Shown here in pieces: positions 8,500-27,947 of a stretch of DNA of 33,585 nt. The DNA is from an uncultured Flavobacteriales bacterium (GTDB lineage: Bacteria > Bacteroidota > Bacteroidia > Flavobacteriales_D > Sanyastnellaceae): the NCBI GenBank assembly GCA_938085105.1, contig CALKGK010000095.1, forward strand, positions 1 to 33,585. The letters run 5' to 3'. The notes under the pieces were generated by a model. It saw nothing but the letters and a program-made list of their open reading frames with translations. It made no database searches and had not been told where the DNA came from. The translations under genes were made by a program, and so were the position numbers. How positions within the stretch are numbered: the stretch's first letter is position 1; each line of letters opens with the position of its first letter.

Positions 8500-10488
8500 A
8501 TGAAACGAATCCTATCCATCATCACCATCTGCATTCTTAGCCTCACCACTTTTGGCAAAGACAATGAAATTAAGCTGAGCAGCAGCATTCAAGAAGTGAC
8601 CGTTTTCCAGCAAGGCGCCCAAGTTACGCGGGTGGCACGAGCAAACATTCCTGTGGGCACGCACGCGCTCATTTTTGAAGGTTTATTCACTGGAATTGAT
8701 CCCGCACAACTGAAAGTAACGGGCGAGGGCGATTTTACCATCTTGTCCATGAACCACGAATACCACACCGATACCATCGCAGGTTGGAACGGTGAAGAAC
8801 AACGCAAACGACTCCAAAAGGAGCGCGCGGCATTGAGCGAGGAAATTTCCCGAGAGAATGGGTGGCTAGACATCTACAATCGCGAGGAAACGATGCTCTC
8901 TCAGAATCAAGTTTTCGGAACCAAAGAAGAGGGTGTTGATCTCGATAAATTGAAAGCAGCGGCCGACTTTGTTCGTCAGCGTTACATCGATATCCGACAA
9001 CAGCGCTTGGCCATTCAAGACCGTGTCGCAACCCTCACGGCCAAAATTGCCGAGATTGATTTGGAATACAGCCTAATTCCCCCGATTCAAACCAAGCAAG
9101 AACTCCGCATGATTGTGCGCGTGAAGGCCAAAAAGGCAGAGGTGGCTACCTTCAAACTTCAATATCAAGTGAACAACGCGGGTTGGTATGCGGGCTACGA
9201 TGCACGTGTGGCGAGCATTGATCAGGACCTCCAGTTGGATTACAATGCTTTTGTATATCAGACTTCCGGGGAAGACTGGGAAGACATTGAACTGGTGATT
9301 TCAACGGGAACTCCTCGCCAAAACAAAAACAAACCAAAATTGAGTCCATGGCAATTGGGTCAGGCTTCACAACCCGTAGTGCAGCCCAATCACGGCAATC
9401 ACTTGCAATTGAATTCAGGATTGAAGAATGCCACTTGGAACCCCAATGTGCGTCAAGTAAGCGGTGTAGTGATGGATCATAACGGACGTGCGCTCTCCGG
9501 GGCGAGTGTTTCTCTCGGAGGAACCAACACGGTGGTGAGCACGAATGCTTACGGACAATATTCAATCAATATTCCAGTCAACTATGGAGTATTGCATTTC
9601 ACCTATCCGGGTGCCATCACTCAAACTTTCAATGCGAGTGGAAACACAATGAACATCTATTTACAGACTTCCAACGGACAAGCTAACAATGGGGTGACCA
9701 TCCAGCATGACGAAGTGAGAATGGCTACCTTGGACGTCGCTGAAGTTCAAGTATTGAGTCATGCCCCAGCAGCCACTTTGAACAACGAAGGAGCCTTGTT
9801 TTCTGGTCGGAATAGAAACAAGCAAGATCAGGCGATGGAAGAAGAGCGCTTCACTTTTGCGAGTGTTCAAGTGGCCTATACGCCAACACAAACGCAATTC
9901 AAGATTGACGCCAAATACAGCATTCCTTCTACGGGGGCAAAATATGCGGTGCAGGTAAGTAGCTTTGATTTGGATGCCGATTACCTCTATCAATGCGTAC
10001 CGAAGATGGACCCAACAGCATACTTAACTGCCCGATTGACGGGTTGGGAAGATTTGAATCTGCTCTCTGGAAACATGAATGTTTACTTCGAAGATACCTA
10101 CGTGGGTCAATCGCAACTGGATTTGTCGCACTTGGAGGATACTTTGAACATTTCACTTGGTCCAGACAAAAACATCCACGTGAAGAGAAAAAGCATCAAG
10201 TCAGATCAAAAGGACCAGATGATTTCGGGTAAAACAAAAGATACACGTGCTTGGGACATCGTGGTATTGAATAAGAAGCGTTCCGACATCAACATCCGCA
10301 TCGAAGATCAAATTCCAGTAACCTCCAACGAAGAGATTGAAATTGAAGTGGAGAGCATCAGCGGTGGTTCTTTAAGCGAAGAGAGTGGAATCATTGTTTG
10401 GGATTTCAGTATCAAATCCAACAAGGAGAAGAGCCTTACACTGAAATATTCGGTAAGGTATCCCAAGGAGTTTGTGGTGAAACTCTGA
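8500..10488 (+). CDS. MuiA-family DUF4139 protein with inserted carboxypeptidase-regulatory-like domain
   Basis: This 662-residue exported protein has a signal peptide (MKRILSIITICILSLTTFGK). A DUF4140-like N-terminal beta domain follows (about 27-95), then a charged coiled-coil (about 97-190) and a long DUF4139 domain to the C-terminus (about 205-662). The name comes from a family member linked to mucoidy; the molecular function is unknown. Within DUF4139, residues about 317-389 (VRQVSGVVMDHNGRALSGASVSLGG...) form a carboxypeptidase regulatory-like beta-sandwich, common in Bacteroidota cell-surface proteins. The C-terminus lacks an obvious T9SS tail, so a periplasmic location is likely. A terminator follows 23 bases downstream. 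It shares a divergent start region with the glycosyltransferase. Confidence 0.9.
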   Translation: MKRILSIITICILSLTTFGKDNEIKLSSSIQEVTVFQQGAQVTRVARANIPVGTHALIFEGLFTGIDPAQLKVTGEGDFTILSMNHEYHTDTIAGWNGEEQRKRLQKERAALSEEISRENGWLDIYNREETMLSQNQVFGTKEEGVDLDKLKAAADFVRQRYIDIRQQRLAIQDRVATLTAKIAEIDLEYSLIPPIQTKQELRMIVRVKAKKAEVATFKLQYQVNNAGWYAGYDARVASIDQDLQLDYNAFVYQTSGEDWEDIELVISTGTPRQNKNKPKLSPWQLGQASQPVVQPNHGNHLQLNSGLKNATWNPNVRQVSGVVMDHNGRALSGASVSLGGTNTVVSTNAYGQYSINIPVNYGVLHFTYPGAITQTFNASGNTMNIYLQTSNGQANNGVTIQHDEVRMATLDVAEVQVLSHAPAATLNNEGALFSGRNRNKQDQAMEEERFTFASVQVAYTPTQTQFKIDAKYSIPSTGAKYAVQVSSFDLDADYLYQCVPKMDPTAYLTARLTGWEDLNLLSGNMNVYFEDTYVGQSQLDLSHLEDTLNISLGPDKNIHVKRKSIKSDQKDQMISGKTKDTRAWDIVVLNKKRSDINIRIEDQIPVTSNEEIEIEVESISGGSLSEESGIIVWDFSIKSNKEKSLTLKYSVRYPKEFVVKL

Positions 10489-10639: not shown

Positions 10640-10665
10640 GATGGCTGAGCGGAGCCGAAGCCATC
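10640..10665. repeat. Hairpin repeat, copy 2
   Basis: The stem GATGGCT/AGCCATC encloses the identical core GAGCGGAGCCGA. It overlaps the stop codon of the amidohydrolase-like gene by two bases and could protect or end that transcript. Confidence 0.65.
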
Positions 10666-11962
10666 ACTCATACTTCGCCTTATACTTCCGATAAAGCAAT
10701 TTCTGGCGGTTATCAAGATCAATCCCTCTTCCTGAAATACAAGCAAAAACGATGTTGTTGCTCATCATGTCCAAAGCGTCGCCGTCCGAAACAATAATGG
10801 TGGCATATTTCCCCACTTCCAAAGACCCTACGCGATCATCAATGCCCAAGATTTTTGCCGCACTGAGGGTGATGCTCATTACGGCTTGTTCGTAGGTGAG
10901 TCCGTAAGCAGCGGCAGTTCCTGCGTAAAAGGGCAGGTTTCTTGTCCCCATTTGTTCCATGTCTCCGCTGTTCTGAAGGCAAAAGAGCACTCCTTCGTCC
11001 GACAATAATTTCGGGAGCTTGTAGGGAAGGTTGACGTCGTCTTCTGCATACTCAGGAAGTTCGTGCACACGATAAAGCATCACGCTCACTTGGTTGTCGC
11101 GAAGCAAATCGGCTGCCATCCAAGCGTCATAGCCTCCAACAATGCAAAGGCGCTCAATTCCGAAATCGCGTTTGAGTTGAACGGCTTCCACCAATTGCTT
11201 GTAGTCGTTGGCATGAACATAGAGGCAAAGCTCACCGTTAAAGAGTCCGCGCATGGCTTCATACTTCAAATCCTTGATGGTTCCATTGCCTTTGGAGTAG
11301 GCTTCACTTTCCCTGAAAAAGCGTTGAATTTCGTGCAGTTGTTGCTCATAGCTTTTGCGAAGCGTTACTGCTGCTTTTCCTTGTTGTTCGTGTACGTGGT
11401 GCATTCGGGGCCAATTCATGTGCACACCGTCGGTCATTTCCATGGCAGCATCTTCCCAGTTCCAAGCATCAAACTGCACAATGGCAGAGCTTCCACTGAT
11501 CATTCCTCCGCGGGGTGTAATTTGCCCCATCAAAACCCCGTTCGAGCGCACGGTTGGGGTGATGTCAGACTCCGTATTGAAGGCAATCACGGCCCTTACG
11601 TTGGGTCGGAAGGTCCCAATTTCATACTGATCACGGGTTGCTCTCACTGCGCCAATTTCTTGAAGTCCGAGCGTGGAGTTGGGAGCGATAAATCCAGGAT
11701 AGATGTGCTTCCCTTTGGTGTCGATTACCTCGTCGTAATTGTCGCTTTTTGCTTTTAGGGCTGAACCTACAAAAGTGATAATTCCGTTTTCATAGCCGAT
11801 GGCTGCGTCTTGAATCACGTCCCCATTCCCCAAGTGTGCCGTGCCGCCAAGCAGAAGGGTTTTTCCTTCGTGTTTGGGTGCCGGACTGTTTTGGTCTTGT
11901 GCGAGGAGAATACTGCTGCAAGAGAGGAGGGCGATGCTGAGTGTTAAAATGGCTTTCTTCAT
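10664..11962 (-). CDS. Amidohydrolase-family protein lacking metal ligands
   Basis: This 432-residue exported protein has the amidohydrolase composite-domain layout: N-terminal strands (TLLLGGTAHLGNGDVIQDAAI), IDTKGKHIYPGF, a barrel, and the C-terminal LGIDDRVGSLEVGKYATIIVSD. The metal-binding HxH that normally follows PGF(I/V)D is replaced by APNST (about residues 88-97), and the late catalytic aspartate position reads NSGD. It probably does not hydrolyse substrate and may serve as a partner subunit. The N-terminus MKKAILTLSIALLSCSSILLAQDQ is a signal peptide. ALLSC could be a lipobox, but the hydrophobic core continues past the cysteine, so ordinary cleavage after LLAQ is equally likely. 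It starts 3 bases after the stop of the 1022-residue gene, so the two are one operon. Confidence 0.87.
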   Translation of the reverse strand: MKKAILTLSIALLSCSSILLAQDQNSPAPKHEGKTLLLGGTAHLGNGDVIQDAAIGYENGIITFVGSALKAKSDNYDEVIDTKGKHIYPGFIAPNSTLGLQEIGAVRATRDQYEIGTFRPNVRAVIAFNTESDITPTVRSNGVLMGQITPRGGMISGSSAIVQFDAWNWEDAAMEMTDGVHMNWPRMHHVHEQQGKAAVTLRKSYEQQLHEIQRFFRESEAYSKGNGTIKDLKYEAMRGLFNGELCLYVHANDYKQLVEAVQLKRDFGIERLCIVGGYDAWMAADLLRDNQVSVMLYRVHELPEYAEDDVNLPYKLPKLLSDEGVLFCLQNSGDMEQMGTRNLPFYAGTAAAYGLTYEQAVMSITLSAAKILGIDDRVGSLEVGKYATIIVSDGDALDMMSNNIVFACISGRGIDLDNRQKLLYRKYKAKYE

Positions 11963-11965
11963 GGT

Positions 11966-14900
11966 CTAGTATTCTTCAAGAATGGTGTCACAATGGTTGT
12001 GTTGGTGCACGTGCTTGCTCGGAGTGCGGCGTTTTCCTCCTCCATTTTCTGAAACCAACATTTTTTGAATGATTCGGGCGCGCTCTTTTTGGATGTAGTC
12101 CTTTTTGGCTTGATCCTCCTCAGCGTTCCAATAGCAGATGCCTTCAATGAAGGTCTTTTCTGCTTTTGCATAGATGCTCATGGGGTGCTCAGACCATATC
12201 ACGATGTCGGCATCTTTCCCCACTTTGAGTGAACCCATGCGGTCGTCCAAATGCAACAATTTTGCTGGGTTGAGGGTCACGAACTTGAGGGCTTCTTCTT
12301 CGGGGACGCCACCGTACTTCACGGCTTTCCCCGCTTCTTGATTGAGTCGTCGCGCCATCTCAGCGTCGTCCGAATTGAATGCCGTAACAACTCCCTGTTC
12401 CCAAAGGATGGCTCCGTTGTATGGAATGGCGTCTTTTACTTCAAATTTGTAAGCCCACCAATCGGAAAAGGTAGAACCACCGGCGCCGTGTTCGCGCATT
12501 TTATCGGCCACTTTATAGCCTTCAAGTATGTGCGTGAACGTGTTTAAGGTGAATCCCATGCTGTCTGCCACGTGCATGAGCATGTTGATTTCGTCTTGGC
12601 GGTAACTGTGGCAAGTGATGAATCGTTCTCGGTGGAGAATCTGAAGCAAAACTTCGAGTTCAAGATCGGTTCGTGGTTTGGCGGGAACTTGTCCTTTTCT
12701 TCGGGCTTTTCTACTGAGGGTTTTCAATTCCCGGTCGTAGTTTTCCCAAGCCATTCCGTATTCTCTTGCTCGGATGAATTCGTCGTAAAACACTTGTTCT
12801 ACACCCATTCGTGTTTGAGGGAAGCGTTCGGTTTGATAATCGCCCCAGTTGCTTTGTTTCACGTTTTCCCCAAGTGCAAACTTGATAAAGGGAGCTGCGT
12901 CCCACATCACCATTTCTTCCGGAGATGCACCCCACTTCAATTTGATCAAGGCGCTTTGTCCGCCAATGGGGTTGGCCGATCCGTGAAGCAATTGAGAACA
13001 GGTTACCCCACCTGAAAGCTGGCGATAAATGTTGATATCTTCAGAGTTTACACTGTGCTGAATGCTCACTTCGGCGCTACTGGCTTGCGTTCCTTCATTC
13101 ACCCCACGAGAAATGGCGATGTGTGAATGTTCGTCAATGATCCCTGGGGTAACGTGTTTGCCCTTAGCGTCGATGACTTCGATTTCAGGAATGTTCTTGC
13201 CAAAGACTTCGTTGAGGTTGATGGATTTACCCACTGCAGCAATTTTACCGAGGTGCATCAAGAGTTGAGCGTCTTCCAAGATTCCTTCCTCTTCATTGGT
13301 CCACAAGGTTGCATTCTTGATGAGCACGGTTTTGAGTTCGGGTCGTTTTGGAGATCCATAGGCGACGAAGGGATAAATCAACTCACCCATGTTTTCTTCA
13401 CCTTGGCTCTCTGTGCTGCCTTCCTTGGCTTGCGGAGCTTCAAATTCGCTTTGTTTCACTGCCATCCAGTCTTTCCAAGAACCGTCGGGGAATTGCACTT
13501 TTCCATCCCAAATCCGACTTTCGGCATGAACAATTCCGCTAAAAAAGAGGGTTCCATCTAAGCCAAAATGATCTCCTTTGGCGTTCATGCTCAATTGGTG
13601 TTGTTCTTGGGTGATGTTAAGTTCGACGCTTGCGCTATCAGCATCAATAACCAAGATCTTTCCTTTGGGTTTGCCTTGTTTTCCGGTGATGCTCAAGGGG
13701 TAGAGTTTTCCGTTGATGTTGAAGTTGTACTCTCCACGAACGTCCACAAGCAAACGATCTTGAACACGTTCTACTTCACCTTGAATCCACACTTCGAGCA
13801 ATTCACTTTCGTCGTCAAAAAGGTTTTGGCTCATCACCAAAAAGTTGGCTTCTTTTCCAGCACTCAAGTCGCCCACAAAAGAGGTGGCATTGAGGAATTC
13901 TGCCGGACGAGAACAGAGTGCCTTCATCGCTTCTTCTTCACTCAACCCATGACTTACTGCTTGTCGCAAATGCTTAAAAAAGGTGTCCGAGTTGCACCCT
14001 TTGGAAGTGATGCAAAAAGGAACACCTGCCGCTTCGAGTCGGGCGAGGTTGCTTGGTGCGAGTTCCCAATGTTTGAGTTCTTGAAGTGAGATCATTCTTG
14101 CGAGGTACGGGTCGCGAACATCAAATGCGATAGGAAAATCAATCGGGACGATGAGCATTCCTTCGCTTGCTTTGATTTCATCAATTCGTTGGTACTCGTC
14201 TCCATTTCCAACAAAGGCAAATTGCATGTCGAACTCATCACCAATCCGATCCGCTCTTAAAATGTCCAGTTTTTCTCTAGTGTCGAAAATCAGAGGCAAG
14301 TCCAAAGAGCGTCCGAGCGCTTCTAAACTCAGGTTACGTTCGTTTTTATCGGGTGTATTTTCATACCAATCGAGGTCGTAAAAGGTTTGGCGCAGCAAGG
14401 CAATGGCTCCCATCAAAGAACTTGGGTAGTCTTGTTCACTGCTTCCTTTACTGAAGGAGAAGTGGGTGGCGCCTTCGCTCAATAGGAGGTTTCGATTCGT
14501 TTGGTTTCCAAGGGTGATGAGTGCTGATCTACCCCGCGCAATTCCGTCGTGATGGTGGGTGAGCACGGTTCCAAATCCCATTTGCTTGAGTTGATTGGCC
14601 TGTTCTTCGTTGATTTTGAAGGCTTCGGCTGCGGAGAATTCCGGACGAATGGCTTCGTTCCAACCAAAAGCACCTTTTTCGCTTCGTTCGATGTGCGGTT
14701 CTCTGCTCCATTGGCGTCTTTTCACTTCTGGCATCCCGTAATCCGACTCCAAATCAATGAAGGCCGGATAAACGTGTGCTCCACCAAGATCAATGATTTC
14801 GCATTGTTGAGGAGCATCAATTTTTTCGCCAATGGCAAGGATTTTTCCATTTTGAACGAGCATTTGTCCGTTCGGGAAGTCGCTTTCTCCCGCAGTATGG

Positions 14901-15034
14901 AAGTGGGCATTGATGTAAAGACTGCTCACCACCTTTTTCTCCACTGTTCCGTTCATGGGGAAAGTGCTTTGGGCATAGATCGCCGTGGAGGCGCAGAGCA
15001 GGCAGAAGCTCAGAGTTAGAATCCATGTTTTCAT
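11966..15034 (-). CDS. Tandem amidohydrolase: inactive N-terminal half fused to active C-terminal half
   Basis: This secreted protein of 1022 residues from ATG 15034 has signal peptide MKTWILTLSFCLLCASTAIYAQ. A first amidohydrolase unit (about 35-430) has YPAFIDLESD where HxH is expected. A linker domain (about 435-540) follows. A second unit (about 565-1005) keeps the metal site: DEHSH (H636, H638), CHSY (H809), THILEG (H835) and NSDD (D889), and ends with the typical MGSLKVGKDADIVIWSEHP. Relatives include imidazolonepropionase-like and dipeptidase-like exported hydrolases; the substrate is unknown. The frame could start 13 codons earlier at a TTG, but the signal peptide begins at 15034. It is co-transcribed with the ligand-less 432-residue gene and divergent from nfu. 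Confidence 0.9.
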   Translation of the reverse strand: MKTWILTLSFCLLCASTAIYAQSTFPMNGTVEKKVVSSLYINAHFHTAGESDFPNGQMLVQNGKILAIGEKIDAPQQCEIIDLGGAHVYPAFIDLESDYGMPEVKRRQWSREPHIERSEKGAFGWNEAIRPEFSAAEAFKINEEQANQLKQMGFGTVLTHHHDGIARGRSALITLGNQTNRNLLLSEGATHFSFSKGSSEQDYPSSLMGAIALLRQTFYDLDWYENTPDKNERNLSLEALGRSLDLPLIFDTREKLDILRADRIGDEFDMQFAFVGNGDEYQRIDEIKASEGMLIVPIDFPIAFDVRDPYLARMISLQELKHWELAPSNLARLEAAGVPFCITSKGCNSDTFFKHLRQAVSHGLSEEEAMKALCSRPAEFLNATSFVGDLSAGKEANFLVMSQNLFDDESELLEVWIQGEVERVQDRLLVDVRGEYNFNINGKLYPLSITGKQGKPKGKILVIDADSASVELNITQEQHQLSMNAKGDHFGLDGTLFFSGIVHAESRIWDGKVQFPDGSWKDWMAVKQSEFEAPQAKEGSTESQGEENMGELIYPFVAYGSPKRPELKTVLIKNATLWTNEEEGILEDAQLLMHLGKIAAVGKSINLNEVFGKNIPEIEVIDAKGKHVTPGIIDEHSHIAISRGVNEGTQASSAEVSIQHSVNSEDINIYRQLSGGVTCSQLLHGSANPIGGQSALIKLKWGASPEEMVMWDAAPFIKFALGENVKQSNWGDYQTERFPQTRMGVEQVFYDEFIRAREYGMAWENYDRELKTLSRKARRKGQVPAKPRTDLELEVLLQILHRERFITCHSYRQDEINMLMHVADSMGFTLNTFTHILEGYKVADKMREHGAGGSTFSDWWAYKFEVKDAIPYNGAILWEQGVVTAFNSDDAEMARRLNQEAGKAVKYGGVPEEEALKFVTLNPAKLLHLDDRMGSLKVGKDADIVIWSEHPMSIYAKAEKTFIEGICYWNAEEDQAKKDYIQKERARIIQKMLVSENGGGKRRTPSKHVHQHNHCDTILEEY

Positions 15035-15063: not shown

Positions 15064-15096
15064 TTGCAGGCAAATGTTAGTCAATCATTACCTTTG
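15064..15096 (+). promoter_or_regulatory. Promoter of the nfu gene
   Basis: TACCTTTG at 15089-15096 matches the -7 consensus exactly and ends 15 bases before ATG 15111. TTG at 15064-15066 lies 22 bases further upstream. The box overlaps the alternative GTG start at 15096 and so decides for ATG 15111. Confidence 0.55.
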
Positions 15097-15110
15097 TGAA
15101 AAATTCCATC

Positions 15111-15761
15111 ATGAGCACAAGAAAGATCATCCCAACAGCAGTTTATGCTGAAATGACCCCAAACCCGGCGGTAATGAAATTTGTTGCCGATCGCTGGCTA
15201 ATTGCCGATGGTTTGCAGGTGGAGTTTTCGTCCAAAGAACAGTGTCAAGGAGCTGCTCCTTTGGCTGAAGAACTCTTTAATTTTCCTTTTGTTAATGCGG
15301 TGTTCATTAGTGGAAACTACGTGGCCGTTACAAAAGACGAGTCTTTGGGCTGGGAGATGATTGTACAACAGCTAAGAGAGTACATTCGGGAGTGGTTGTT
15401 GGAAAACGAAATTGCTGTAAGTCATGTGCCGGAAGGCTTGGAAGCGGAGATGCCTGGAGCAGAAGCGGGTGCATTGGGTTTGACCCAAGAGCAGAAGGAC
15501 TTCATTCAGAAAGAAGACATTTCTCCATCCGAATTCGATGAAGAAATTCGCTTTTTGTTGGATGAATTCGTTCGTCCGGCAGTGGAACAAGACGGTGGAG
15601 CTATTGATTTCACCGCATACAAAGAAGGAAAAGTTTATGTCCAACTGAGAGGAGCTTGTTCTGGTTGCCCAAGCAGCATGCAAACCCTCAAAGGAGGAAT
15701 TGAAAATTTGTTGAAATCAAAAATACCTGCTGTAGAGGAGGTTATTGCTCAAGAAGCCTAA
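15111..15761 (+). CDS. nfuA: Nfu-type iron-sulfur cluster carrier protein
   Basis: This 216-residue cytosolic protein carries Fe-S clusters to target enzymes. An Nfu N-terminal domain (YAEMTPNPAVMKFVADRWL, about 12-95) is joined by an acidic linker to a NifU-like C-terminal domain (about 140-216) with RPAVEQDGGAIDF and RGACSGCPSS, where C183 and C186 bind the cluster. This two-part layout is the normal form in Bacteroidota. The E. coli NfuA N-domain is unrelated, so the symbol is used in the broad sense. The frame also opens at GTG 15096, but that codon lies in the promoter box. The gene ends 4 bases before the DUF3050 gene, so the two form an operon. Confidence 0.93.
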   Translation: MSTRKIIPTAVYAEMTPNPAVMKFVADRWLIADGLQVEFSSKEQCQGAAPLAEELFNFPFVNAVFISGNYVAVTKDESLGWEMIVQQLREYIREWLLENEIAVSHVPEGLEAEMPGAEAGALGLTQEQKDFIQKEDISPSEFDEEIRFLLDEFVRPAVEQDGGAIDFTAYKEGKVYVQLRGACSGCPSSMQTLKGGIENLLKSKIPAVEEVIAQEA

Positions 15762-17457: not shown

Positions 17458-19761
17458 ATGACCAACTCAAACACTTCACTTCTGCTGAATGCGGTACTTC
17501 GTGCCTGTGTTTTGTGTTCTTTGGTTTTCGGTTTCTCTTCAATGATGCATTTGAATGCGCAGTGTACCCAAAACACCCTCACTTTTACCATGTTTGATTC
17601 CTTTGGCGATGGCTGGGATGGGGCACAATATACCCTCTCAGATCAAGCTTCAGGAATTGTACTCTACACCGGCACCATGCTCACTGGAGCTACGGAAACA
17701 GTGGTCTTTTGTTTGCCCGACGGATGCTACGATTTGAATGTCACTCCAGGCATTTTCCCAGGGGAGGTTTCTTGGACGCTCGCTGGAAGTGATGCTGGAA
17801 CGATAAGCGGTATCCCAGGAAGCAGCGTTTTTTCTGTGAACGATGCAAGTTGTTCTGGTGGTGGAAATTGTCCTGATCCCTACACGTTCATTGCACAAGG
17901 AGGGACCTTCGATTTTGAGATTTCTTGGGCGATGTCCACAGACGATGGGCCGGTAGCCAGCGGTTTCGCAACTCCAAGTACGCCCGTTTGCCTTGAGGAT
18001 GGCTGCCTCTATTTGGAGCTTTTTGATTCTTTTGGGGATGGATGGAATTATGCCAACTACACCTTACTCGATCCGCTGGGGAGTATAGTAGCAACAGGAA
18101 CAATGACGATGGGTGCCTATGAATTCATTGTGATTGAAATTGGCAATGCAGATTGCAACATTCCCGACCCGCCAGACGTCATTCAAGTTGAGTCAGGAAA
18201 CCTTACTCCGCAAGCCCTCATATCAGATGTATTCTTGGGAGATTGTTTGTCTGCAAGCAACATCCAATATTCTGGAGACTTGAGCGCTATCGGCACTTTT
18301 TCTCAAGGTTCTTCCATCGGTATTGAAGAAGGAATTATCCTGAGCAGCGGAAATGCCATGGACGCAGAAGGTCCAAACTTGAGCGGCAGTAGCGGTACTG
18401 GGTTTTACACGGCGGGCTTGGACTTACTCGATGATATTGCTGATAATTTTACTTCTGATGCAGCCATTTTTCAATTTGACTTTGTGGCACAAACAGACGG
18501 TGTAAGTTTCACCTATGTTTTTGCCTCAGATGAATATCCTGAATTTGTTTGTGGAACGGTGAACGATGCTTTTGGCTTTTTTGTTAGCGGACCAGGATAT
18601 GCCCCCAACACCAACATTGCAACGGTTCCTGGAACGACGGACCCGGTAACCATTAACAATGTAAACAACAACGGAGACGCATGCCCGCCCTACTACGGTG
18701 CGTATTACAACGACAATTTAATGGGTACTGCTCATGAGTTTGACGGATACACGGTTCCGCTCACAGCGAACATTGTGACGGAGCCCTGTGCCACCTATCA
18801 AATCATCATTGCGGTGGCCGATGCTGGAGATGCGATTTACGACTCTGCCGTTTTTTTGGAGGCCGAAAGTTTCACTGCTGGTGTTGATGTGGGCGTGACT
18901 GCGGCGGCTTCTTTAGGTCAGAGTAATCCTGGGAATTGTGAGGAGAGCGGTTACTTTTTCTTCGTGAACAATGGAGACGACTTTTCCGAGGAGGTCACCC
19001 TAAATTACTCCATTTCAGGGTCTGCTGTAGATGGTGGTTTAATCGATCCCATTCCTTCAAGCATTACATTCCAACCGGGGGAATTGTTGATTCAGCTTCC
19101 TGTTTCGTCCATTGCAGGATCCTTGGGCTTGAGTCCGGAATCCGTTACCATCACCATGGACCCGAGTCAGGGTTGTTCTTGCTCGGTGGAGCAGATGCAG
19201 AGTACTTTGTATCTCTGTTCTGCCTTAATGCTTCCGGTGGAGGGTTTGACCTTCGACGCGAACTATCGTGCTTTAAATGATGAGGTCTTGTGCACTTGGA
19301 GCACGGAAAGCGAACATCAAAGCAGGAATTTCGAACTGGAACATTCCCTTGATCTTGTGAATTGGTCTTCGCTCGGAGTACTGGAGGCGGCGGGAAACAG
19401 TTTGGAAAGAAGAGAGTACCGCTTCAGCCATAAAAATCCCACTGAAGGACGCTTGTATTACCGTCTGAAACAGGTTGATATCAATGGGGATTATAGCTAT
19501 TCCGATGTTCGAACGGTCAATAAAATGCGGATTTCTTCTTTCAACCCGATTCAACCGAATCCCAATGGTGGAAGGTTTTATTTAAGCCGAAGTGAAGCCG
19601 ATGAGCTGGTGTTGAGGAACGCCTTGGGTCAACTGGTTCCTTTTATTTGGAGTGAAGACGGAAACCTCGAGCTCACTGATGCATTGCCTGGTAATTATAT
19701 TCTCGAACTTAAATCAAAAGAAGGTGAAATCTTGGGTAGGTTTCGCTGGATGGTGCAATAG
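17458..19761 (+). CDS. Secreted choice-of-anchor L protein with T9SS-type tail
   Basis: This 767-residue exported surface protein begins with a signal peptide ending HLNAQ (about residue 35). Two related beta domains each start with the motif FDSFGDGW (residues about 46-53 and 188-195) followed by a YTL strand and a GTM turn, an internal duplication. A choice-of-anchor L domain follows (about 250-480), including FTYVFASDEYPEFVCGTVNDAFGFF. The C-terminal about 75 residues (FNPIQPNPNGGRFYL ... LPGNYILELKSKEGEILGRFRWMVQ) fit a T9SS type A sorting domain. It is probably carried across the outer membrane and anchored or released. Ligand and function are unknown. It is divergent from the S24 repressor and 76 bases from the metalloprotease gene. 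Confidence 0.88.
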   Translation: MTNSNTSLLLNAVLRACVLCSLVFGFSSMMHLNAQCTQNTLTFTMFDSFGDGWDGAQYTLSDQASGIVLYTGTMLTGATETVVFCLPDGCYDLNVTPGIFPGEVSWTLAGSDAGTISGIPGSSVFSVNDASCSGGGNCPDPYTFIAQGGTFDFEISWAMSTDDGPVASGFATPSTPVCLEDGCLYLELFDSFGDGWNYANYTLLDPLGSIVATGTMTMGAYEFIVIEIGNADCNIPDPPDVIQVESGNLTPQALISDVFLGDCLSASNIQYSGDLSAIGTFSQGSSIGIEEGIILSSGNAMDAEGPNLSGSSGTGFYTAGLDLLDDIADNFTSDAAIFQFDFVAQTDGVSFTYVFASDEYPEFVCGTVNDAFGFFVSGPGYAPNTNIATVPGTTDPVTINNVNNNGDACPPYYGAYYNDNLMGTAHEFDGYTVPLTANIVTEPCATYQIIIAVADAGDAIYDSAVFLEAESFTAGVDVGVTAAASLGQSNPGNCEESGYFFFVNNGDDFSEEVTLNYSISGSAVDGGLIDPIPSSITFQPGELLIQLPVSSIAGSLGLSPESVTITMDPSQGCSCSVEQMQSTLYLCSALMLPVEGLTFDANYRALNDEVLCTWSTESEHQSRNFELEHSLDLVNWSSLGVLEAAGNSLERREYRFSHKNPTEGRLYYRLKQVDINGDYSYSDVRTVNKMRISSFNPIQPNPNGGRFYLSRSEADELVLRNALGQLVPFIWSEDGNLELTDALPGNYILELKSKEGEILGRFRWMVQ

Positions 19762-19837: not shown

Positions 19838-21988
19838 ATGCTTGCCATGACAATTAAACAACAACTATCCACGCTGCTCTTTTTTCTTATTGCCATTCCT
19901 TCTCTTCAAGCTCAAATTGTTTGTGGTTTGGGAGATTACCAGCATCAAGCTTGCGAACATGGCCTCCAAGGAACCGGCATTGATGAGTTCAGTTTTGTTC
20001 CACCTCCGGCCGATTTTGACCCGAATGGAGAGCGAGCGGTTGTGATTAACGTGAACTACAATAATTTTCCTGCCAATGCCCAAGCAGCTTTCGATTATGC
20101 GGTAGACATTTGGGCTTCGACACTCACTTCTAGTGTGCCCATTGTTATTGATGCCAATTGGCAATCCTTGAGCGGTGGAACATTGGGCTTCGCTGGGGCA
20201 CAAAACCTCTTTCGAAATTTCCCAGGCGCTGAACAAAGCAATACCTATTATGCCGCGGCACTCGCCAATAAATTGAGAGGAACGGATAATGCTGCCGGAC
20301 AAGGAGACATTACCTGTACTTTCAATAGTAACTTCAATTGGTATTTTGGAACGGATGGAAATACGCCCGGCGGCCAGTACGACTTTGTAACGGTTGTGTT
20401 GCACGAGTTGTGCCACGGATTGGGCTTTTTTGGAAGTGCTTCGGTGAGCGGAAGCCAAGGGTTTTTGGAAATCAATAATGACCCTGTGATCTACGACACC
20501 TTTGTGGAGTTGAACAATGGTACGGACCTCACCTCTTTGAGCAATGGTTCGACGGCGTTGGGAGACGCACTCACGGGCAACAACCTCTATTGGAACGGTA
20601 TTGAAGGAGTGGCAAGTAATGGGGGAACCCGACCAAGAATGTATGCTCCCGGTACTTTTGCTAGCGGATCGAGCTATTCTCACCTCAACGAAAACACCTA
20701 CACTCCAGGAAACGCTAATTCTCTGATGACCCCATTTTTAGGTACTGCCGAGGCCAATCACAATCCAGGTCCTATCGTGCTTGGGATTTTTGAAGACATC
20801 GGATGGACCCTCGGAAATGAGTGCTTATTGGAAAGCGTGAGTTTGATAAATGTGGGAGAATGCAACCCGACGCTGAATCGTTACGCGGCTCAAATTGAGG
20901 TGACTTATACTACTCCTCCACCATCAGGTTTATTGAGCGTTAATGGGAACTTGTACACCGTAACTGGGAGTCCGCAAACAGTGAACATCGGAAATTTGGT
21001 GGCCAACGGGCAAAATGTGGATGTCACGGTGTTTTTCACCATCGACCCGGACTGCAGCATCTTTGAAAACAACCTTTGGCAAGCGCCATCAAACTGCTGC
21101 CAAGACCCGCGTTTGTCTGAAGTAAATCCAGATAACGAGACCATCACCATAACCAATTACGGAACCTGCAACATCAACCTTGCTAACCATCGCTTGAGTT
21201 CAGGTGGAAGCAATGTCAATATCAACAACCTCAACGTGGTGAGCGGAACTTTAATCGTGAACCCCAATGCTTCGGTCACCCTCTCGTGGACCGCTTGGAA
21301 CCCGCCGGTTGGAGGAATAGATTTGGCCTTGTATTCTCCTTTCCCCGACCTAAACAATCCAGAAGACATGTTGGATTTCATGCAATTTGGTAGTGGAGGA
21401 AATGGAAGAGAAAGCGTAGCCGTTGCCAAAGGAATTTGGGGTGCAGGCGATTTTGTGAGTGGATTGTCGCCCTTCAATTACATTGGAGATGGGGATCAAA
21501 ATGGAGTTGCCTTCTGGGAAGGGGCGAGTCCTCCGTGCAGCTTGAATTTGCTCACAACAGGAGTTCAAAGTGCCTGCGATCCTCTGAGCAATACTTACAC
21601 TCAAGCCTTGCTTTTTACCTTTGAAGAGGCCCCGGAAGGGGGGCAGCTCACGGTGAACGGCCAAAATTTCGACTTCAGCACTTCTCCGGCGATCATTAAC
21701 TTATTGGATTTGGTTTCGGATGGAAACACTCAGAATGTAAACGCGTTCTTTAGCGATGAGCCAACATGCGCTTTTTCTGCGAATTCGGTATTTATAGCGC
21801 CAAGCTCATGCTTTTGTCCACGCGATTTGAACCTCGACGGACAAGTAGATGTGCAAGACCTTTTGGTGATTTTGGCTGAAATCGGATGTACCACAAATTG
21901 CAGCGCAGATCTCAATAACGACGGCAGCGTAGGAAGCAGCGATGTTTTGATATTTTTGCCTGACTATGGAACGGTCTGCCCACAATAA
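19838..21988 (+). CDS. Secreted zinc metalloprotease-like protein with dockerin-like C-terminus
   Basis: This is a 716-residue exported protein (MTIKQQLSTLLFFLIAIPSLQAQ signal; ATG 19847 is an alternative start). The peptidase-like domain (about 30-330) has VVLHELCHGLGFFG, with H189, E190 and H193. The eleventh position of the metzincin-type motif, usually His or Asp, is Gly199, so the third ligand is uncertain. Two repeats of about 75 residues (LLSVNGNLYTV... and QLTVNGQNFDF...) surround a lamin-tail-like domain (about 425-560). The last 60 residues hold two calcium-loop motifs, DLNLDGQVDVQDLL and DLNNDGSVGSSDVL, as in dockerin type I, in place of a T9SS tail. The target is unknown. Confidence 0.85.
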   Translation: MLAMTIKQQLSTLLFFLIAIPSLQAQIVCGLGDYQHQACEHGLQGTGIDEFSFVPPPADFDPNGERAVVINVNYNNFPANAQAAFDYAVDIWASTLTSSVPIVIDANWQSLSGGTLGFAGAQNLFRNFPGAEQSNTYYAAALANKLRGTDNAAGQGDITCTFNSNFNWYFGTDGNTPGGQYDFVTVVLHELCHGLGFFGSASVSGSQGFLEINNDPVIYDTFVELNNGTDLTSLSNGSTALGDALTGNNLYWNGIEGVASNGGTRPRMYAPGTFASGSSYSHLNENTYTPGNANSLMTPFLGTAEANHNPGPIVLGIFEDIGWTLGNECLLESVSLINVGECNPTLNRYAAQIEVTYTTPPPSGLLSVNGNLYTVTGSPQTVNIGNLVANGQNVDVTVFFTIDPDCSIFENNLWQAPSNCCQDPRLSEVNPDNETITITNYGTCNINLANHRLSSGGSNVNINNLNVVSGTLIVNPNASVTLSWTAWNPPVGGIDLALYSPFPDLNNPEDMLDFMQFGSGGNGRESVAVAKGIWGAGDFVSGLSPFNYIGDGDQNGVAFWEGASPPCSLNLLTTGVQSACDPLSNTYTQALLFTFEEAPEGGQLTVNGQNFDFSTSPAIINLLDLVSDGNTQNVNAFFSDEPTCAFSANSVFIAPSSCFCPRDLNLDGQVDVQDLLVILAEIGCTTNCSADLNNDGSVGSSDVLIFLPDYGTVCPQ

Positions 21989-22922: not shown

Positions 22923-25900
22923 ATGCGGAATACGAGCTTTTTCCTTCTTTTCATATCGCTTTTTGCCTTGGTTTTTTCTGTCCAAGCGCAAATAGGGAAT
23001 GAATGGATTGACTATGGTGCTCAGTATTGGCACTTTCCCGTTTCACAAGATGCCGTTGTTCGTTTGAGTTACCAAGACCTTCAAGGGGCGGGTTTTCCCA
23101 TTGGCGGACTCAGTAGCGATGAAATTCGACTGCATTCAAGAGGGGAAGAACAAAGGATTCAGTTATTTGATGGGGGAGATGGAAGTTTTGACCCGGGGGA
23201 TTATCTCTTGGTCTTTGCGGAAAAGAACGACGGTTGGCTCGACCGAGAACTCTACCAATCGCCATCCGATCAAAACAACCCGCATTACAGCAATTTCAAC
23301 GACACGGCTAGAGTGTATGTGAGCAAGTCCTCAGGTCCGGCTCCCCTTCGCACAGCAATTTATTCGACCACTACTCCCATTGAAAATCTGCCGAGCATCA
23401 ATTATGCATTGAGCAAGAGTTTGGGGTCTTATCACGACAGCTATTTTTTCGGAGTACAGGACCAAAACGGTTTCGCCCTTCCTTGGTACCAAGAAGCGGA
23501 AGGCTGGTATGATACCCGATTTGGGAAAGGACAAACGAGGGACAAGGACTTAGCCACTCCCAACGCCTATCAAGGAAATGACGCTCCCATGCCTAAAGTA
23601 AAGGCGATCTCGGCGAGCGCATCTTTGGCCACGGGCATTTGGAATCACCACCTTCAAGTAGGTTATGGGAGTCCGTTTGTGCCCGTAATCGACAGCGTGT
23701 ATTACGGATATCAGCTCAATAATTTTGGTTTTGACTTGCCAAGTCAAGATTTGGGAGCAACTACGCGCATTACCCATCGTTCCGTGGACGACCTTGGTGT
23801 GGCGACGGATTACCACGTCATTTCCAACATTGAAATTACGTATCCCAGAACTTTGGATTTTGGCAACGACCTGGAAGCAACATTCAGCGTTCAGAGTCCG
23901 GGAGGAAACGAAGCGGTACTGAACATTGCGGCTTTTGGCGGATCTCAACCGCGGTGTTTTGTGCTTCAGGAGAATGGCTTCCGATGGGAACTACCTTTGG
24001 TTCAAAATGATGGTGCATGGCAAACCATTGTGCCATTTGATGGTGGAAACAGTGCCAACATCTTGCTGGTAGACGAAAGCCTCTTCAATGCTCAACCGTC
24101 CTTAGCTCCTGTGAGTTCAAGCGGTTTTTTCACCAATTACCTTTCCACCCCTCTGGACAGTGCCATGGTCATCATCACCCATTCGAGCTTGCTTACTTCG
24201 GCGAACAATTATGCCTCGTACAAAAACAACACAGGCCTGCCTTGCTTATTGGTTGATGTGAACGAGCTCTACCATCAATTTGCTGCTGGGATTTACAAAC
24301 ATCCCTTGAGTATTCGAAGGTTCTGCGATGCTTTGTTGAGCACCTGGTCGTCTCCACCAAGTCACCTCTTCCTCTTGGGTAAAAGCATCCATGAGATGAA
24401 CATCAGTTCTACGGTGGGAGCGCGAAACAATGAAGATAAATATGCCCGAAATCTCGTTCCAAGCTACGGTCATCCCACTTCCGATTTGGCATTCACCGCA
24501 GGTTTGAATGGAACGCTCTTTGAAGCAGCCATTCCTACAGGTCGACTAGCTGCTGCAAACAATGAGGCGGTGTTTGACTATTTGAATAAGGTCATTGAAT
24601 TCGAAAGCGCCGAACCCCAAGCTTGGATGAAAAATGTGCTCCATTTTGGTGGTGGAGGAAATCAATTTGAACAATCCTTGTTTCGCGGATACCTCCAAAA
24701 TTATGAGAACATCGTGGAAGATGTTTGTTTTGGAGGAGATGTGTTTTCCTTTTACAAAAGCAGCACCGATCCCATTCAAATCAGCGTTTCAGACAGCATA
24801 CAACTCTTGATTGAAGAAGGAGTATCGCTCATGACTTTTTTCGGACACGCTTCAAGCACAGGCTTTGATGTGAATATCGACAGTCCTGCCAGCTACGACA
24901 ACCAAGGCAAATACCCCCTCTTGATTGGAAACAGTTGTTACACCGGGAACATCCATTTATCTCAAGGGCTAAGTACCAGCGAGGAGTTTGTGCTTGCTCC
25001 AAATGCTGGGGTTATTGGCTTCATCGCGAAAGGAGATTTGGGCTTGCCCTCGTATTTGAACATCTGGACCAACAGCTTCTACGATCAGATTTTCAGAAGC
25101 AGTTATGGGGAATCCATCGGTCAGTGCATGCAAGGAGCGGTACAGGCGTTTCAAGGGAACTTTCAAAACCTCTATTCCGAGAATGCAGCCTTGACTTTTG
25201 CCCTTCACGGGGATCCTTCCCTTGTATTGAACTCCTGGCCCAAGCCCGACCTCGTTCTCGCCCCCGAAAACGTTTCTTTTGTTCCAGAGAATCTGAATTC
25301 TGCCTTGGAAAGTTTTGAAGTGCATGTGGACATCACCAACATCGGTAAGCTCATAGAATCGGGTTTCGGCGTTGAACTTAAAAGGCATTTTCCCGATGGA
25401 AGCGATACCTCCATTTTTATGAATGTGGATCAAATGGCTTTCCAGAATGAACTAGTTTTCACCCTACCTTTGGATCCCTTGCGCGGATTGGGCATCAATA
25501 CCTTTGATGTGTTTGTTGACCACCCCTCCATCCAAGTAGACGAGCTTGAAAATGTAGCCAATAACATCGTTCAAGGGAAGTCGGTCAATATTACTTCTGG
25601 CAGTGTTTTTCCTGTTTACCCCTATAATTTCAGCATCATCCCCAACGGTCCTGACGGATTTTATGCTTCTACTGGAGATTTACTGAGTCCGCTGAAACCT
25701 TACCGCTTCCAACTTGACCGCAGCCGTGATTTTGCCGGAGATGATCTGGTAGAGGAAGTCCTTTTTGCTGAAGGTGGATTGATTGCTTGGGAGCCGAACG
25801 TAGCGTGGGAAGAAGGAGTGTATTATTGGCGATGCAGTCCAGACAGTAGCAACGAGAATGGATTCGATTGGCGACATGCCAGCTTTGAGATTTTAGATGA

Positions 25901-27947
25901 GGAGCGAGGATGGGGGCAGGCCGATTTCGAACAATTCACGCAAAACCCACGAAGTCAACTGTCTGAAAACACACCCAATGAAACGCTGGATTTCTTTTCT
26001 CAGGAAGTTCCTTTAAAGGCCAGTGTTTATGGCACGCCGGGCAATACTTTTGAATCTTCAGCCACCCGCTACCAGATTAGCGGACAAGTCATGGAATACG
26101 CTGGATGTGGAGGAACGCCCGCGCTTCATGTGGCCGTGATGGACAGCAGCACGCTCATTCCGTGGGCAAGCAATTATGATAACACCTATCCCGAAAATGA
26201 TTTTGGCAACGTCATCGCCTGCGCCAACGCTCGTCAACGACCAGAGAATTACTTCATCTTTCGCCAAAACAGCAGCGAGCAAATGCAGGGAATGGTGAAC
26301 ATGATTGAGAATGAAGTAGAAGACGGACATTATCTCCTCATTTACACTTGGCAGCACGTTGATTATGACGCTTGGGACACCAATGCACCTGAAGTATATG
26401 AACTTTTTCAGGATTTGGGAGCAAATCAGGTAGGCCTGGGCCAAGATTCGGTGCCCTTCATTTTCTTCATGGAAAAGGGAAATCCTGAGAGCATCATTGA
26501 AGTGGTGGGGAGCAGCATTGATGCGTACATCGAGCTGGAGGCCAGCATGACGGGGAGTTTGGGTTCGGGAAGCATGCAAACTCGAGCTTTGGGCGTGTCT
26601 TCCATTTGGGAGCGATTTGAGTGGGAAGCAACGGGTGAAACCAATGATGAACTCCTCATTCATTTGCAGGGCCGAAGCGATAACAACCCGAGCATAGATG
26701 TGGCTGACTTTTCTGAGTTGAGTGGCGAATTGAATGAACTCACTTCTTTGGTGGACGGAAACGAGCACCCCTACATTGAGATTGATGCCGTTTTGCGCGA
26801 TGAAGAAGACCAAAGTGCCCCACAACTCCAACATTGGCGACTCATTGGTAATCACGTTCCAGAATGCGCTTTGAACGCTTCTGAAGGCTTTTATTTCCCG
26901 AAAGACACCATCATGGAGGGAGAAGAAATGGTACTGTGTGTAGCGGTGAGCAATGCTGGAGAACTGCCCATGGACTCCATCTTGATGAGCTATACCATTG
27001 AGAAGAACGGACTCATTCGTCAGGAAAAACGCTACCGTCTCGATTCTCTTTTGGTGGGAGAACACCTGCTGGACACCGTTTACCTCAGCACCACAGATTT
27101 GATAGGGGCGCACACCTTGAAAGTGGAAGCGAACGCCTTCAACCCGGAAACTGGACAGTACGATCAATTGGAGCAATACCGATTCAACAATCAATTTCAG
27201 CTCAATTTTGTTGTGCAGGACGACCGGATCAATCCACTTTTGGAAGTGACTTTTGATGGACGACGGATTCTGAACGGAGACATTGTGAGCGCCCAACCGC
27301 TGATTCGGGTGAGTTTGGATGACGAGAATCCCTACTTGATCATGAATGAACTGAGCGACACTTCAAGTTTCAAAATGTATGTGCAGGACCCTAGCGGAGT
27401 GCAAAGCCCCGTCTTTTTTGCCAACGAAGAAGAAGTATTGTGGATTCCGGCAGAGAACGACAATAAAGTGGCTTTTGAATACCGACCACAGTTCACACAA
27501 GATGGTAGCTATCGTTTGCTCGTTCAAGCTCAAGATAAAAGCGGAAACAGCAGTGGTGATTTGGATTACGTGATTGATTTTGAAGTCATCACCGAAAGCG
27601 GCATTACCGACGTTCTCAACTACCCGAATCCCTTCACCACGAGAACTCAATTTGTTTTCACCCTAACAGGAGCTGTACCGCCCGATGAAATCTACATTCA
27701 GATCATGAACATTAGCGGACGAGTAGTGCGTGAGATTCGAACAGAAGAATTTGGTCCCATGGTGATTGGTAGAAATCGCAGTGAATATTGGTGGGACGGA
27801 AGGGACCAGTATGGCGACCCCTTGGCCAATGGAGTGTACCTGTATCGCGTGATAGCCAAGCAACAAGGCAAGGTAGTGCAGCACCGCGATTCCGCAGCAT
27901 CACCCTACTTCAATAAGGGCATCGGGAAGATGTATTTGATGCGCTGA
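22923..27947 (+). CDS. porU2: Type IX secretion system sortase-like protein PorU2 (C25 gingipain family)
   Basis: This is a 1674-residue exported cysteine-peptidase-like protein. It has signal peptide [23 protein letters not shown], an N-terminal PorU-like beta region, and a C25 catalytic domain (about 410-770) with the His in [11 protein letters not shown] (H642) and the Cys in [11 protein letters not shown] (C672), 30 residues apart as in gingipains and PorU. A long series of beta domains follows. The C-terminus ([16 protein letters not shown] ... [21 protein letters not shown] ... GKMYLMR) is the FlgD-like ending typical of PorU2. PorU removes sorting tails and attaches cargo at the cell surface. 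PorU2 is a family name by similarity, and its own role is less clear. The choice-of-anchor L protein 3 kb upstream is a possible client. Confidence 0.92.

Follow-up and report, generated by a model that had tools for sequence, protein, structure and literature searches.

A putative secreted metallo-hydrolase of Bacteroidota with one metal-competent and two metal-less amidohydrolase units

Two adjacent genes in a 33,585-nucleotide stretch of DNA from an uncultured Flavobacteriales bacterium (contig CALKGK010000095.1; the whole stretch is called the window here) encode three amidohydrolase-type units, and only one of these has a full set of metal ligands. Our preferred reading, to which we assign a probability of roughly 0.64, is that the gene products form a secreted (probably periplasmic) hetero-oligomeric metallo-hydrolase with one type of catalytic unit and two types of non-catalytic unit. 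The C-terminal unit of the large protein (C) would carry the metal site and do the chemistry. The N-terminal unit (N), which is fused to C in the window, and the separate small protein (S) would be paralogous, non-catalytic units, probably descended from one partner that was already metal-less. Most likely, they hold the active unit in a working assembly and border the entrance to its active site; we thus infer an assembly or gating role for them. The direct observations behind this reading are the loss of the ligands and its fixation, the N-C-S gene order, the occurrence of N and C both fused and as separate genes, the co-retention of the genes, the conservation of S, and the confident folds of C and S.

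Organization of the gene pair

A preliminary description of the window, made from its letters, claimed three amidohydrolase-type units in two genes with a 3-base gap. The open-reading-frame (ORF) list agrees, and Pfam places an amidohydrolase domain above cut-off in both proteins. The two motifs that it cited, YPAFIDLESD in the N half and YPGFIAPNST in the small protein, were both found. The parts of the pair are as follows.

10664..11962, minus strand: small gene, 432 residues (S unit), degenerate amidohydrolase (ORF list, Pfam, alignment to 3ooq)
11963..11965, no strand: inter-gene gap of 3 bases (ORF list)
11966..15034, minus strand: large gene, 1022 residues, comprising N unit, beta domain and C unit (ORF list, Pfam, AF2 model)
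13745..14935, minus strand: N unit, residues 34-430, probable degenerate amidohydrolase unit (ligand alignment, secondary structure)
13400..13744, minus strand: beta domain between the N and C units, residues about 431-545 (strands of the model; boundaries approximate)
12110..13357, minus strand: C unit, residues 560-975, metal-competent amidohydrolase (3ooq match, VIA-align)
13121..13129, minus strand: H636-S637-H638, the HxH metal motif (131/131 C units)
12941..12943, minus strand: K698, candidate bridging (carboxylated) Lys (130/131 C units)
12608..12610, minus strand: H809, metal ligand place (131/131 C units)
12530..12532, minus strand: H835, metal ligand place (131/131 C units)
12368..12370, minus strand: D889, catalytic/metal Asp place (131/131 C units)
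11969..12109, minus strand: C-terminal tail, residues 976-1022, with the conserved C1015 (130/131)

Translation of the large protein from the ATG at 15034 yields 1022 residues; an alternative TTG at 15073 would add 13. Its beta domain, which has eight strands at residues 434-530 in the AF2 model, evolves fast (mean pairwise identity 0.273). A search with the large protein at E 0.001 returned no further copy in its own genome. Signal-like N-termini, recognized by eye only, suggest secretion, and the complex would probably be periplasmic.

Around the pair, the window holds the following.

8500-10485, plus strand: DUF4140/DUF4139 protein with a carboxypeptidase-regulatory-like domain inside the DUF4139 stretch, convergent with the small gene
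15096-15758, plus strand: Nfu/NifU-type scaffold protein, divergent from the large gene
17458-19758 and 19838-21985, plus strand: two large ORFs (767 and 716 residues) with no Pfam match at E 1e-4
22923-27944, plus strand: 1674-residue protein with a Peptidase_C25 (gingipain-type) domain

A DUF3050 open frame follows the Nfu/NifU-type gene and overlaps it slightly.

Fold and family membership

By fold, and by its HxH motif, two further His residues and Asp, the C unit is a member of the amidohydrolase superfamily. The small protein has the superfamily fold and lacks the metal ligand set. For both, the PDB yielded a single sequence match below E 1e-10: 3ooq (E 3.5e-48 for the C unit, 4e-23 for the small protein), the solved structure of an amidohydrolase from Thermotoga maritima MSB8 that we take to be locus TM0814. 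This protein resembles the C unit in its five ligands and Lys; it differs from the set in the window in having a single, active unit.

The AF2 models of the large protein (pLDDT 88.2, pTM 0.86) and of the small one (pLDDT 90.7, pTM 0.89) were compared with 3ooq using VIA-align. The C unit superposed with a Z of 47.3 and an rmsd of 1.9 over 373 residues, the small protein with a Z of 44.6 and an rmsd of 2.4 over 355. In the large model, this comparison extends mainly over residues 566-974; the N unit is tied to the other units by sequence similarity and by a similar secondary structure. A pTM of 0.86 for a chain of 1022 residues suggests that its halves have a defined packing in the model.

Metal ligands of the three units

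The aligned segment of 3ooq served as the frame for reading the ligand places. Assignment of a unit to C, N or S used profiles built from the window's lineage, and the ligands were not a criterion. In the window, the C half keeps H636, H638, H809, H835 and D889 along with K698, which presumably bridges the metals by analogy with the rest of the superfamily. The five places are occupied by E96, D98, D251, G276 and K345 in the N half, with T174 at the Lys place, and by N95, T97, H250, G276 and S332 in the small protein, with Q163 at the Lys place. Because the small protein retains the third His (H250), it is ligand-poor rather than ligand-free.

The same division holds among relatives. Within the window's lineage, each of the five ligands is present in all 131 distinct C-unit sequences, and the Lys in 130. 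The commonest residues in 107 N-unit sequences are Tyr (63) at the first place, Ser (35) or Asp (34) at the second, Glu (33) at the third, Gly (90) at the fourth and Asp (44) at the last; in 127 S-unit sequences they are Asn (111), Thr (97), His (104), Gly (124) and Ser (55). In a broader set of 160 units, the five ligands plus Lys occur in 61/61 active-type units and in 0/99 N-type or small units. The latter comprise 56 S units (22 S1, 13 S2, 21 S3) and 43 N units (22 N1, 21 N3); the ligands of the three-gene N units (N3) are read from low-identity alignments, mostly 21-26% to the N unit of the window. The earlier claim that only the C half keeps the HxH, two later His and the Asp is thereby upheld, and the ligand loss in N and S is a conserved rule that goes beyond chance. 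The fourth ligand is replaced by Gly in 21/22 N1, 15/21 N3, 21/22 S1, 10/13 S2 and 19/21 S3 units.

Might N and S be active enzymes after all, using another mechanism or another metal site? The S unit of the window's lineage does have well-conserved His residues at 43, 181, 250 and 300, and the N unit of one locus (L160) retains HSH at the first site. At its other ligand places, however, this same N unit carries D, G and E, and at the Lys place Ser; the conserved His residues of S are mostly absent from S2 and S3. In the fused-lineage N unit, the only acidic, His, Lys or Cys residues conserved at 85% or above are D82, E132, H160, D163, D220, E267 and D305; the conservation check found in it no HxH-like cluster and no conserved His/Asp/Glu set resembling a metal site. 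As to ligands supplied from other positions, a point that the preliminary description itself had raised, the outcome is divided: N offers no conserved residues that resemble a site, and the four His residues of S in the window's lineage leave room for one. Overall, we consider it quite unlikely that N and S are catalysts of another kind.

Two Cys residues of the C unit show a tendency to be present together. C808 (12611-12613), immediately before the ligand H809, is Cys in 127/131 sequences, and C1015 (11990-11992), in the C-terminal tail of the active unit, in 130/131. All 110 fused open frames (107 distinct) have a Cys in the last 40 residues. Among 43 trio C units, counted with the tail as the last 60 residues and with relatedness uncontrolled, 33 have both Cys residues, four have neither and six have one only; judged by the tail, those lacking both are the group of L149, L150, L156 and L160. 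A disulphide, or a tail lying over the active site, would be our guess.

Conservation of the gene set across genomes

The phylum was sampled with 296 genomes of at least 90% completeness, and the counts below rest on these; figures for strong matches are among the matches listed. At E 0.001, S was matched in 196/296 genomes and C in 198/296. About a third of the sampled genomes had neither, which makes the system dispensable in the phylum. The relatives G028, G029 and G035 gave no match. Among the matches listed, 155 genomes had a strong match to C or S, and both were present in 155/155. This figure combines 142 genomes with both listed and 13 with one listed, the partner in the latter being taken from per-genome best E-values (S, 9.2e-32 or better; C, 6.3e-79 or better). 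One genome, G046, has a C match and only a weak S match; the rest of this locus, past residue 844 of the large protein, is masked sequence.

C and S lie within 3 kb of each other in 122 of the 142 genomes with both listed (644 bases at most). In two of the other 20, they share a contig at distances of about 1.0 and 1.4 Mb; in the remaining 18, they are on separate draft contigs. The non-catalytic partners are conserved alongside the metal-competent unit in Flavobacteriales and beyond. Relatives with the two genes apart, the counter-case named in the preliminary description, do exist (20/142 genomes); as each of them keeps both genes, they count against linkage rather than against partnership.

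The order of the genes is also fixed. In 104/110 loci of the fused form (101/107 distinct, the window included), the large gene is followed on its own strand by the small one. The other six have the full large gene but lack the small one: three of them (L081, L137, L100) end within 915 bases downstream, and no small gene was found within 2.5 kb in L124 or within about 8 kb in L072 and L085. Of 32 loci centred on the small gene, six were repeats; a C unit lies within 1.5 kb in 24 of the other 26, and not within that distance in L053 and L058. The window's lineage has N and C in one fused gene; elsewhere, N, C and S are encoded by three separate genes. Where there is a separate trio-type C gene, the order is N-C-S on one strand in 21/21 fetched loci, and the open frames touch or overlap in most of them (two larger gaps measure 442 and 981 bases). 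On a plasmid of Hymenobacter volaticus (L187, NZ_CP095062.1), the set is distributed over several frames, whose annotations are those of separate genes, amidohydrolase or hypothetical.

That N and C are fused in some genomes and lie in the same order as separate genes elsewhere, and that both genes are retained in the 20 non-adjacent genomes, makes a physical complex of the large and small proteins likely. The further suggestion of the preliminary description, that the dead units shape substrate or present it to the active one, is more conjectural. It could be asked whether N and S might instead be separate binding proteins, in which the old pocket has become a ligand-capture site and which act beside the enzyme without a stable complex. 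The conservation of residues on the pocket side of S in the window's lineage (N95 in 111/127, H250 in 104/127, H300 in 121/127) would suit such a function. These residues are not common to S3 or S2, so that no common ligand is indicated, and the N-C fusion, the fixed gene order and the co-retention all speak against free-standing binding proteins. We judge this alternative unlikely, and prefer the hetero-oligomeric enzyme.

Constraint on the metal-less units

Comparison of the window with its congener L004 gives pN values of 0.204 (N), 0.096 (C) and 0.087 (S); the synonymous sites are close to saturation or past it, so that ratios are rough. Mean pairwise identity, taken over 67 large and 57 small proteins, stands at 0.676 for C, 0.507 for S and 0.438 for N, the least conserved of the three units. 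Judged by these comparisons, strong purifying selection acts on the dead small unit, which in the pair of window and congener is as constrained as C.

This constraint bears on a further account of the locus, namely that ordinary tandem paralogues are drifting apart with no functional tie, their adjacency being mere inertia. Tandem duplication is common, and N does evolve fastest. Simple drift would, however, have to accommodate the co-occurrence in 155/155 genomes, the 20 non-adjacent genomes that retain both genes, the strong constraint on S, and the recurrence of the same trio in different gene arrangements. We find it highly improbable, and a functional tie between the units remains our interpretation.

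Simpler forms and origin of the set

Simpler relatives of the set were found. In 12 fetched Bacteroidota loci with a more distant active unit, a dead partner adjoins it in 11; in the twelfth (L173), the contig ends. Three of these genomes (G069, G122, G330) have a trio as well. The two-gene form also occurs in two Alphaproteobacteria, Qipengyuania (L183) and Novosphingobium (L184); in each, the second gene has lost the ligands. Acetoanaerobium, Nonomuraea and Monoglobus (L185, L186, L188) encode the active unit, and about 4 kb of flanking sequence on each side of it showed no second one.

A FastTree phylogeny of 160 units (373 columns, rooted on 3ooq) supports the N clade at 1.0, S1+S3 (the S units of the trio) at 0.986, N+S1+S3 at 0.999, and C1+C3 (the C units of both trio forms) at 1.0; the split of all dead from all active units has a support of 0.744. 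An unfinished IQ-TREE tree, which carries no support values, has the same bipartitions. The grouping of N with the S units of the trio (0.999) implies that a partner already dead was probably duplicated, and the fourth-ligand Gly shared by most dead units is what would be expected if the loss predates the duplication. The simplest history is thus probably loss in a partner followed by duplication of that partner. Independent loss in N and S was also considered; this grouping and the shared Gly disfavour it, and the deepest split is weak (0.744).

The history of the fusion is less clear. The fused N units all fall in one clade (1.0, FastTree). Among the C units, those of the fused genes in L149, L150, L156 and L160 diverge earlier than both the remaining fused ones and those of the three-gene form. 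There may have been one fusion with later fission, or other histories may apply.

A broader scheme of accretion can be sketched. A single active enzyme would have gained an obligate partner, a paralogue that had lost its metal; the dead partner would then have been duplicated into two specialised non-catalytic subunits of a secreted holoenzyme, one of which was fused to the enzyme in some lineages, with the dead pockets serving as docking or gating sites that choose the peptide-like substrate for the one live site. Taken as a whole, this scheme is speculative, and we hold it doubtful.

Substrate leads

What might the enzyme hydrolyse? Family models were consulted and given up as a source, as no NCBIfam cut-off was reached among the best 25 of 70 families for the large protein or among the best 25 of 35 for the small one. 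The large protein scored below the equivalog cut-offs of XaaProDiPepCaul (57.4 vs. 500 bits) and hutI (72.9 vs. 298.15). After 3ooq, isoaspartyl dipeptidase and a prolidase are among the closest folds, but the scores of adenosine deaminases and other members are almost as high. Gene neighbours were likewise dropped as a guide to function: apart from the set itself, open-frame families of at least 180 residues each reach at most 21 of 80 named loci. In Qipengyuania (one locus), a peptide MFS transporter gene lies before the pair and a gene for an FKBP-type prolyl isomerase after it. Peptide hydrolysis is a weak lead, coming from one plasmid locus. Our best guess for the substrate is a small peptide or an N-acyl amino acid; from the fold neighbours and the one transporter locus, a small peptide seems a possible but tentative choice, which we hold at somewhat less than even odds. 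Another candidate lead for function is a preprint on a metallo-bile-salt-hydrolase (PMC13081902).

Comparison with known systems and significance

Active and dead paralogues are encoded together in the window, as a hetero-oligomer of enzyme and pseudoenzyme would require. Among the PDB matches were dihydropyrimidinase-related proteins (CRMPs), which are amidohydrolase-fold proteins that form non-catalytic oligomers; they differ from our set in being eukaryotic, in belonging to another branch and in having no catalytic unit encoded alongside. Dihydroorotase also belongs to the amidohydrolase superfamily, and the fold of M16 metallopeptidases is unrelated to it.

Three described systems offer parallels. 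In the metformin hydrolase MetCa/MetCb, paired paralogues comprise one metal-binding protein and one pseudoenzyme; each alone is inactive, and together they are active as a heterohexamer (PMC11271267). This pair differs from ours in belonging to the ureohydrolase superfamily and in having one dead partner. In the aspartate transcarbamoylase of Pseudomonas aeruginosa, an inactive dihydroorotase homologue (pDHO) is necessary for the activity of the complex (PMC7053772). The active partner there is a transcarbamoylase, not an amidohydrolase paralogue. In two-part M16 metallopeptidases, the active-site residues typically reside in one half, and both halves are essential (PMC12731061); these enzymes have one dead half, not two.

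We found no description of the present set in the open-access literature. Enzyme/pseudoenzyme pairs are known; here, the steps toward one seem to persist side by side in living genomes. The forms seen are an active unit for which no partner was seen, an active unit with one dead unit, and an active unit with two dead units, either in three genes or, by fusion, in two. Because these forms coexist, the proposed history, in which loss was followed by duplication and, in some lineages, fusion took place, is testable. The reading advanced here would also provide a hypothesis of function for many Bacteroidota proteins that are annotated merely as amidohydrolase, the dead members of which would be misnamed enzymes.
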